NCBI RefSeq assembly: GCF_004403395.1
Contig: NZ_SOGN01000035.1
Coordinates: 248,001-312,000, forward strand
Direction: 5' to 3'
DNA: 64,000 bases
Origin: Cryobacterium cheniae
GTDB taxonomy: Bacteria > Actinomycetota > Actinomycetes > Actinomycetales > Microbacteriaceae
This document shows, one piece after another, positions 30,923 through 32,986 of the stretch. A model generated the notes under the pieces. The model was not told where the DNA came from. It did not search any database and worked only from the letters and a program-made list of their open reading frames with translations. Each line of letters begins with the position of its first letter. Positions within the stretch are counted from its first letter, which is position 1. Made by a program: the position numbers and the translations under genes.

Positions 30923-31489
30923 ATGATGCAGGATGCGACGGGCACAGCGACGGCCGCCGTGGAGTCGGTCAGCCGCGACTCGCGGCACGCGTTCAGCAAG
31001 CCGACGGTGCCGGAGATCCGTCTGATCAAGGGATTCGGGGTGGAGGGCGACGCCCATGCCGGAGCCACGACGCAGCACCGCTACCTGGTCGTGAAGGATC
31101 CGACCCGGCCGAACCTCACCCAGGTGCACTTCATGCCCGCCGAACTCTTCGACGAGCTGCGCGGGGCCGGCTTCGAGGTCTCCCCCGGCGAGCTGGGCGA
31201 GAACATCACCACCCGCGGGCTGGACCTGTTCGGCCTTCCTCTGGGCGCCCGGCTGCGGCTCGGCGCCGACGCCGTCGTGAAGATCACCGGGATGCGCAAC
31301 CCCTGCTCGCTGATCAACGGGTTTCAGAAGGGGCTGATGAAGACCCTGATCGGCACGGCTGAGGACGGTCAGGTGATCCGCAAGGCGGGGATCATGGGCA
31401 TCGTCGTCACCGGGGGAACGGTCGCTCCCGGCGACCCGATCCGGGTTCAGCTGCCGGTCGGGGAACAGCGACCGCTCGGCGTGGTCTGA
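30923..31489 (+). CDS. MOSC-domain protein
   Basis: 188 residues. MOSC features: KGFGVEGDAHAG near the N-terminus, GELGENITTRGLDL, GARLRLG and the conserved cysteine in GMRNPCSLIN (Cys128). MOSC proteins handle sulfur for metal-sulfur cofactors or bind molybdenum cofactor, as in YiiM-like enzymes reducing N-hydroxylated compounds. GGGGG precedes the ATG pair (30923, 30926). The nearest molybdoenzyme gene is about 12 kb away, so there is no local link. It is 110 nt upstream of the heliorhodopsin gene, with no clear sign of cotranscription. Confidence 0.9.
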   Translation: MMQDATGTATAAVESVSRDSRHAFSKPTVPEIRLIKGFGVEGDAHAGATTQHRYLVVKDPTRPNLTQVHFMPAELFDELRGAGFEVSPGELGENITTRGLDLFGLPLGARLRLGADAVVKITGMRNPCSLINGFQKGLMKTLIGTAEDGQVIRKAGIMGIVVTGGTVAPGDPIRVQLPVGEQRPLGVV

Positions 31490-31599: not shown

Positions 31600-32400
31600 A
31601 TGGCACGCAAAAACTACACCACAGATCAGAAGATCTCCCGCCTCCGGGTCTACAACATCGTGGCCGGCTCGCTGCACCTCGTGCAGGCCCTCGGATTCGC
31701 GTATGTGCTCACTCTGCTGAGCACGCAGGTGACCTTCCCCGTCACCGCCGATTACCTGTCGGGTCCTCCCGGCGTGCCGCTGCCGCCCGAGCGGGTGACC
31801 CTGTTCGACGTCAACGTGGGTATCGGCGTCGTCTCCTTCCTGGCGCTCTCGGCCGTCTTCCATTTCCTGATCTCATCGCCGAAGTTCTTCCCCCGCTACG
31901 CGGCCGGCCTCAGAGCCGACCGCAACTACTTCCGCTGGGTGGAGTACTCCCTGAGTTCCTCGATCATGATCTGGCTGATCGCGCAGATCACCGGCATCAC
32001 GGATATCGCGGCCCTCTTCTCGATCTTCGCCGCCAATGCCGCCATGATCATGTTCGGGGCACTGCAGGAGAAGTACGAGACCCCCGGCAACGGCAAGTTC
32101 CTGCCCTTCATCTTCGGGTCGATGGTGGGCGTGGTGCCGTGGATCGTCATCCTCATCTACTTCATCGGCCCCGGCTCGACCAGCGAGGCCGAACCGCCGG
32201 CCTTCGTCTACGGCATCATCATTTCCCTCTTCCTGTTCTTCAACACCTTCGCCGTCAACCAGGTGCTGCAGTACCGCCAGATCGGCGGCTGGCGCGACTA
32301 CCTCCGCGGCGAGCGCGCCTACATCACGCTGAGCCTGGTCGCCAAGACCGCGCTGGCCTGGCAGGTGTTTTCCGGGGCGATCATTCCGGCCCTCACCTAG
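31600..32400 (+). CDS. Heliorhodopsin
   Basis: 266 residues with seven hydrophobic helices. Heliorhodopsin hallmarks are visible: Lys249 in helix 7 (SLVAKTALAWQ), the retinal Schiff-base lysine, and Glu115 in helix 3 (RWVEYSLSSS), the counterion. The spacing between them equals that of the reference heliorhodopsin 48C12 (Glu107, Lys241), and His88 matches its His80. Heliorhodopsins are inverted (N-terminus inside) retinal proteins with no known pump activity. The start is ATG 31600 after GAAGGAG; an in-frame GTG at 31585 is less likely. No carotenoid cleavage or carotenoid biosynthesis genes lie in this window, so retinal must come from elsewhere. Confidence 0.93.
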   Translation: MARKNYTTDQKISRLRVYNIVAGSLHLVQALGFAYVLTLLSTQVTFPVTADYLSGPPGVPLPPERVTLFDVNVGIGVVSFLALSAVFHFLISSPKFFPRYAAGLRADRNYFRWVEYSLSSSIMIWLIAQITGITDIAALFSIFAANAAMIMFGALQEKYETPGNGKFLPFIFGSMVGVVPWIVILIYFIGPGSTSEAEPPAFVYGIIISLFLFFNTFAVNQVLQYRQIGGWRDYLRGERAYITLSLVAKTALAWQVFSGAIIPALT

Positions 32401-32530: not shown

Positions 32531-32986
32531 ATGAAAGCCGAACGAATCGAACTCGAACCGCGCACCCTGATGGGCGTGCGTGAGACACCCCGGATGGACG
32601 AGCTGACCGAATTCATGGGACGGGCCTTCGGCACCGCCGCCACCGAGATCGGCAAGCAGGGTGCCCACCCGGCCGGCCCGCCGATCTCGATGTACCACGG
32701 CGCTCCCACCGACATCGTCGACGTCACCGCGGGTTTCCCGGTGGCACAGCCGGTCACACCGACGCCCGGCGTGGTGATCGAGACGCTGCCGGGCGGCCCG
32801 GCGATCGAGGCCATCCACACCGGGCCGTACGACACGCTCACCGAGACCTATGCCGAGCTCACCGTCTGGGTCGCGGAGCAGAAGCTCGACCTCGCACCCG
32901 AAATGTGGGAGGAGTATGTGGTCGGCCCCGACACCGAACCGGACCCGGCCAAATGGCAGACCCGGATCGTTTTCCCGCTGAGCTGA
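32531..32986 (+). CDS. GyrI-like effector-binding domain protein
   Basis: 151 residues made up of one AraC-effector-binding/GyrI-like domain: MKAERIELEPRTLMGVRET at the start, MYHGAPTDIVDVTAGFPV in the middle and VIETLPGGPAIEAIHTGPYDTL, the typical beta-strand/loop where small molecules bind. No DNA-binding domain is attached. Stand-alone members bind or hydrolyse small hydrophobic compounds. ATG 32531 has GAGGAG about 6 nt upstream. It lies 130 nt after the heliorhodopsin gene in the same direction; a functional link is possible but unproven. Confidence 0.88.
   Translation: MKAERIELEPRTLMGVRETPRMDELTEFMGRAFGTAATEIGKQGAHPAGPPISMYHGAPTDIVDVTAGFPVAQPVTPTPGVVIETLPGGPAIEAIHTGPYDTLTETYAELTVWVAEQKLDLAPEMWEEYVVGPDTEPDPAKWQTRIVFPLS

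Follow-up and report, generated by a model that had tools for sequence, protein, structure and literature searches.

A canonical heliorhodopsin in Cryobacterium cheniae and a conserved clade of Microbacteriaceae heliorhodopsins lacking the retinal lysine

Introduction

The closest described relative of the protein considered here is the heliorhodopsin 48C12 (PDB 6su3, 6su4, 6uh3). In simulations of its M state, protonated His80 forms a salt bridge with Glu107, after which the cytoplasmic side fluctuates and opens (PMC9726877). Surveys have selected for the retinal-binding lysine: Bulzu et al. retained only sequences with the SxxxK motif (PMC8612252), and a rhodopsin survey demanded the lysine of TM7 (PMC9601134). 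Paralogues that retain the rhodopsin fold without this lysine are already known among type-1 proteins, as Rh-noK or lysine-less type-1 rhodopsins and as FArhodopsins (PMC10308929, PMC7714340), and about 600 Rh-noK were counted among 5,558 microbial rhodopsins "including HeRs" (PMC7714340). They are like the lysine-less heliorhodopsin clade reported below in this respect and differ from it in their type-1 descent and opposite membrane orientation. Gluopsins are animal type-2 proteins, and the yeast opsin-related proteins are fungal type-1 proteins. Both have an opsin fold without the lysine, as the clade does (PMC9368030 for the gluopsins, PMC7714340 for the yeast proteins), and the comparison suggests no common origin of the loss. 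CryoRhodopsins occur in genera that also harbor the clade (Cryobacterium, Subtercola) and have a buried arginine as their family mark; they differ in forming a clade of ordinary microbial rhodopsins with the lysine in place, and their arginine lies in helix B, close to the cytoplasmic face (PMC12227055). At the level of titles and abstract openings we found no published description of a lysine-less heliorhodopsin clade, and its members may have been counted before, within the Rh-noK set of PMC7714340. The novelty of the present analysis rests in this clade, which lies outside the window, and not in the window gene.

Results and Discussion

The window is a stretch of 64,000 nucleotides from C. 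cheniae, and its heliorhodopsin gene has the following features.

31600..32400, + strand: canonical heliorhodopsin gene, 266 aa, ATG start with GAAGGAG ahead of it
31861..31863, + strand: codon of H88, His80 of 48C12 by alignment; Arg in 35/54 lysine-less relatives
31942..31944, + strand: codon of E115, the counterion, Glu107 of 48C12 by residue-by-residue alignment
32344..32346, + strand: codon of K249, the Schiff-base lysine, Lys241 of 48C12 by alignment

A first-pass annotation had recognized a heliorhodopsin here, with Glu115 and Lys249 spaced as Glu107 and Lys241 of 48C12, and both points were borne out. The protein matches two curated models at full length, Pfam PF18761 (E 1.2e-97, 326 bits against a cut-off of 26.7, positions 1-241 of 242) and the NCBIfam heliorhodopsin equivalog NF038020 (E 8.7e-104, 346 bits, cut-off 100), and its top sequence match in the PDB is 48C12 (E 1.1e-88). 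Alignment equates H26, H88, R112, and E115 with H23, H80, R104, and E107 of 48C12, and E238, S245, K249, and W254 with E230, S237, K241, and W246; the glutamate and the lysine stand 134 residues apart in both proteins, ungapped in between. The SxxxK motif of helix 7 (S245-K249) and the helix-3 glutamate (E115) are both present. A predicted model of moderate quality (pLDDT 80.5, from a 15-row alignment) has seven long helices and a beta hairpin, and the N-terminus is placed inside by the charge rule only, Arg plus Lys being more numerous inside than outside in 63/63 lysine-bearing rows, the window sequence (L001) included. The two proteins thus share the compared key residues, the E/K spacing, and near-full length, and no difference of consequence was found between them. 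The Pfam match is far stronger than chance would give, and by its sequence the gene is a canonical heliorhodopsin, one more member of a known large family. Its product would have seven helices, the N-terminus inside, retinal on K249, and E115 as counterion, and retinal binding, a photocycle, and sensing may be expected of it. Scanning the window for Rfam families and tRNAs returned no matches.

A search of the same genome returned two heliorhodopsins, the second of them at C39:34175-34906 with 128.7 bits.

C39:34127-34909 (= L033:10128-10910), outside the window: lysine-less heliorhodopsin gene, 261 aa

This copy retains RWVEYS and reads LVTLGTTLLAGQ where the window protein reads LSLVAKTALAWQ, and threonine replaces the helix-7 lysine (row L002). 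It matches PF18761 at E 2.5e-37, the sole Pfam family matched at E up to 1, and NF038020 with 131 bits (cut-off 100). In sequence, and in fold as judged from a close homologue's model, it belongs to the heliorhodopsin superfamily; it lacks the helix-7 Schiff-base lysine of heliorhodopsins sensu stricto, and it is not of the type-1 (PF01036) descent of the Rh-noK proteins. The gene is solitary: one neighbor, a DNA-alkylation-repair gene, is divergent from it, and the other, an FAD oxidoreductase gene, is oriented toward it. Its nearest relatives in named genomes are from Cryobacterium (76-86% identity).

Such copies recur across the family. A PF18761 search of 299 Microbacteriaceae genomes found 60 with a heliorhodopsin, 19 of these with a low-scoring copy. 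A profile made from the 19 copies (A1), which had been collected via the Pfam profile with no motif filter, added four genomes, giving 23/299 lysine-less genomes. A scan of a species-genome collection led by the pattern VPWG[VI][IV]A[FL]x[QE] yielded 45 lysine-less loci from 12 named genera and MAGs, invariance at the pattern positions in that set being by construction. The genera are Cryobacterium, Agromyces, Frigoribacterium, Salinibacterium, Subtercola, Microbacterium, Microcella, Curtobacterium, Labedella, Frondihabitans, Amnibacterium, and Yonghaparkia; some of the MAGs are named to order or phylum level only, and one labelled Acidobacteria has an apparent counterpart (G209:C17) that the genome collection assigns to Microbacteriaceae. 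Altogether 119 distinct homologues were gathered, 63 with the lysine and 56 without (two of the 56 not covered at the site). L085, which a stop splits into two pieces, fell to a length filter of 150 aa, leaving 117 rows with Lys at the helix-7 site in 63, another residue in 53, and one uncovered (L120, at a contig end). The clade comprises 54 distinct sequences, with lysine in 0/53 that cover the site, and the 117-row tree shows a single change of the lysine trait, with support 100. Elsewhere in the phylum, the lysine was checked in the 29 highest-scoring of a further 107 genomes with matches, and 29/29 of these loci, from other families, have K, E, and H; when they were added, in a tree that omitted long-branched and near-identical rows, the lysine-less rows remained on one side of a branch. 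Both trees were quick searches with SH-aLRT support only and were not rooted by data. The A1 profile matched 26 of 396 genomes of the order, all matches being K rows except the lysine-less copy of the window's own genome, and in the family, order, and phylum samples every lysine-less copy detected belonged to a genome assigned to Microbacteriaceae. One truncated second piece (G094) was left unclassified in the counts. Separately, four relatives (L161-L164) have a second heliorhodopsin, another divergent paralogue, which bears the lysine, reads RWWEY in helix 3, and sits on a long branch.

At the lysine site the 54 clade rows hold T (15), A (7), G (7), F (5), P (5), V (4), S (3), L (3), M (2), R (1), and I (1), with one row uncovered. 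Helix cores are free of lysine in 53/54 rows, on which ground a relocated Schiff-base lysine was rejected as a rule, and the whole aligned domain is free of it in 34/54. H23, H80, E107, and S237 are kept in all 63 Lys rows; in the lysine-less rows position 23 is Leu or Met in 38/56 and Ser237 is retained in 15/56. The copies therefore share the fold of 48C12 and differ from it in lacking the helix-7 Lys, in having mostly Leu or Met for His23 and mostly Arg for His80, and in a variable Ser237. This erosion of M-state relay residues that are fixed in canonical rows counts against the explanation that we favor below. The clade has retained GIVPWG in helix 5, LNG after helix 3, Y143, T207, and L211, and in window numbering N131, G132, Y143, P180, W181, G182, A185, T207, and L211 are invariant or nearly so. 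For the lysine-less copy of Cryobacterium cryoconiti (L078:6001-6783) the predicted model is confident (pLDDT 92.7, pTM 0.88), and its best structure matches are to 48C12 (6su4_A, TM 0.87/0.89, Z 30.9, 1.9 A over 247 residues), with Z at most 21.8 against type-1 rhodopsins. Arg plus Lys are more numerous on the cytoplasmic side than outside in 52/54 lysine-less rows, suggesting that the inverted topology has been kept.

Position 80 is His in 63/63 canonical rows and Arg in 35/54 lysine-less rows, which divide into 35 with an acid at 107 and Arg80, nine with the acid and no Arg, ten with neither, and none with Arg and no acid. The acid has been lost about four times, and Arg80 is missing from every acid-less row. 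Counted on the tree, the link between Arg and acid is carried by two independent pairs on supported branches (four on all branches), with none opposite and some showing no difference, which is too few independent pairs for the association to reach significance. Two sets of rows fit an ion pair poorly: 7/8 Curtobacterium rows have an acid at 107 with Trp or Gly at 80, and two other lysine-less rows keep Glu107 with Ser or His at 80. The Curtobacterium subgroup (L100, L104, L105, L107, L108, L112, L115, L117) has Asp in place of Glu107, in the motif DPLLT.

The first-pass annotation had also stated that no retinal-forming gene lies within the window, and this holds for the whole assembly as far as two models reach. 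The BCD/Blh model has no match in any of the 71 contigs (the same model matches 19/60 related genomes), nor has RPE65 (control matches in 2/14). It does not follow that retinal is lacking. Of the related heliorhodopsin genomes, 41/60 are likewise without a BCD match, and the actinobacterium Aurantimicrobium minutum, which has crtYe/Yf and crtEb and neither blh nor diox1, contains retinal nonetheless (PMC7734400). The absence of a Blh or RPE65 match is a point against our preferred explanation, but a missing known retinal gene is no argument against a working protein, because A. minutum makes retinal without one. Contig C46 (L198:5603-11237) has idi, crtE, crtB, and crtI, identified by eye, together with two TIGR03462 lycopene-cyclase halves and a UbiA-type elongase; with its crtYe/Yf-like halves and elongase, this set reads by eye as a putative C50 carotenoid cluster. 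A PF01036 search of the genome finds a single type-1 rhodopsin, at C49:7607-8296. It is followed directly, on the same strand, by a photolyase-type FAD-binding gene (PF03441), the two lying within L052:7481-9610, and it has, as read by eye, an ordinary D-T-E pump motif, for which reason a CryoRhodopsin identity was tentatively set aside. With two types of rhodopsin, a C50 cluster, and no Blh or RPE65 match, the genome is a candidate for an unknown route to retinal.

The neighborhoods of the lysine-less genes show synteny at the level of the genus only, and no partner is conserved across genera among 68 loci, a set that includes the same contigs from two collections and rests on a crude GC3 method of gene calling. 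In the Microcella group a GT4 glycosyltransferase lies up to four genes upstream in 16/68 loci (10 at -1), and in Frigoribacterium an ABC-2 permease stands at -1 in five lysine-less loci. In Curtobacterium 7/8 loci have a GNAT gene at +1, and 7/8 have, up to three genes upstream, a photolyase-related gene (PF04244 in L108, the example tested), which is about 0.5 kb away where adjacent. A divergent DNA-alkylation-repair gene is found at 4/5 lysine-less loci of Cryobacterium. The Pfam names of these neighbors come from one tested example each.

We consider it reasonably probable that the window gene is canonical and retinal-binding and that its sister clade does without covalent retinal, with many members holding an M-like ion pair that joins positions 107 and 80. 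With no lysine in helix 7 and none in the helix core, a lysine-less protein would be unable to form the usual Schiff base, and it is on this ground taken to work without covalent retinal. The ion pair is suggested for many members because His80 has mostly become Arg and the counterion acid has been kept. A fixed Arg80 would mimic the charge of protonated His80, and a 107-80 pair like that of the simulated 48C12 M state would give a permanently "lit" or a structural form. We infer that the lysine-less heliorhodopsins are retinal-free and possibly locked on. We speculate further, and quite tentatively, that an old, conserved Microbacteriaceae clade gave up retinal and that most of its members fixed a buried acid-Arg pair, becoming chromophore-free, constitutively "lit" regulators; this fuller account we hold to be doubtful.

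Lysine-less heliorhodopsins might instead be sensors of a noncovalently bound ligand (retinal, an apocarotenoid, or some other lipid), a role already suggested for other lysine-less opsin-fold proteins; we likewise regard this proposal as rather doubtful. The helix-5 VPW, invariant in 19/19 A1 members, could speak for it, as could the company these genes keep. A type-1 rhodopsin is present in 19/23 lysine-less genomes versus 65/276 others (Fisher 2e-8, kinship ignored) or, in a fairer version by genus that still ignores kinship, in 9/10 versus 18/75 (9e-5), and BCD scores above cut-off in 12/19 lysine-less versus 6/41 canonical-only genomes (Fisher 5e-4, kinship ignored). These associations are confounded by kinship, however, and many other residues are variable. 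Since 33/41 canonical-only genomes also have a type-1 rhodopsin, both forms of heliorhodopsin occur mostly in rhodopsin-bearing bacteria. Moreover, three of the 19 lysine-less genomes (G004, G153, G282) have neither BCD nor another rhodopsin, indicating that the lysine-less protein can persist without a known retinal protein. The 4/23 lysine-less genomes without a type-1 rhodopsin show that the link to retinal proteins is not strict, which also counts against our preferred explanation.

It is unlikely that the lysine-less copies dimerize with the canonical heliorhodopsin or the type-1 pump and so tune it, the role that has been proposed for Rh-noK proteins next to proteorhodopsin (PMC10308929). 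Beyond that precedent, such a role would draw on the same 19/23 genomes with a type-1 rhodopsin and on the 7/23 that also have a canonical copy (lysine checked in five; score only in G139 and G189). Against it, 16/23 have no canonical heliorhodopsin and 4/23 no type-1 rhodopsin to pair with, and in the genome of the window the canonical, lysine-less, and type-1 rhodopsin genes lie on three separate contigs.

The lysine-less copies are under purifying selection, somewhat relaxed, and it is very unlikely that they are canonical genes decaying into pseudogenes. They do evolve more quickly, with dN/dS of 0.25-0.36 in five comparisons of Cryobacterium lysine-less copies versus 0.12-0.23 in three canonical comparisons (the pair of the window gene with L073 was dropped for an unusable value, probably due to a wrong automatic start), and the Salinibacterium xinjiangense copy (L085:5989-6630) has an in-frame stop, so that the gene is broken unless the sequence is in error. 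However, all other gathered copies are open frames, single TGA flags at the gene end in the profile search having been checked against ORFs for G004 and G282, and a single old clade with 13 invariant columns across the 19 A1 members, dN/dS well below 1, and a confident fold does not resemble decay.

The first-pass annotation had further placed the window gene between a MOSC gene and a GyrI-like gene, all on one strand, and had raised the idea of a partnership. The coordinates and Pfam matches confirm the arrangement.

30923..31489, + strand: MOSC-domain gene, upstream (PF03473, E 8.2e-13), 110 nt from the heliorhodopsin gene
32531..32986, + strand: GyrI-like ligand-binding gene, downstream (PF06445, E 2.4e-13), 130 nt from the heliorhodopsin gene

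The two proteins and those of eight other window genes served as phmmer queries (E 1e-5), with heliorhodopsin anchoring the search. The loci searched were 35 other canonical ones from the family, flanked by about 8 kb in 21 cases and by at most 1.5 kb in 14. A MOSC or GyrI match was found beside 0/35 of them, three loci of the same genus included, and both were recovered in the window's own short locus. Near canonical loci the eight other neighbors gave sporadic quinone-oxidoreductase-type matches, a single dehydrogenase match (L066), and nothing else, and in an all-against-all run of the neighbors, noisy with antisense frames, no family among the matches listed occurred in more than 6/22 canonical loci. 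Coupling of the window heliorhodopsin to MOSC or GyrI in control of a local ligand- or sulfur-transfer function is therefore extremely unlikely: the genes do adjoin on one strand, and partner genes next to heliorhodopsins have been reported for other species (PMC11109279), but the pairing is absent from the other loci, both gaps exceed 100 nt, the main texts of PMC11109279 and PMC8612252 mention neither gene, and a crude scan that saw neither a promoter- nor a terminator-like site between the heliorhodopsin gene and its neighbors is uninformative either way.

Significance

The reading that we prefer, a canonical window protein beside a sister clade that works without covalent retinal, matters because the function of heliorhodopsins is still debated. 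The loss of the lysine with the fold, topology, and a set of invariant residues kept points to a role of the scaffold besides retinal binding, and the lysine-less clade offers natural loss-of-light controls. If many of its members are indeed locked by a 107-80 ion pair, the clade would show which surface carries the heliorhodopsin signal.
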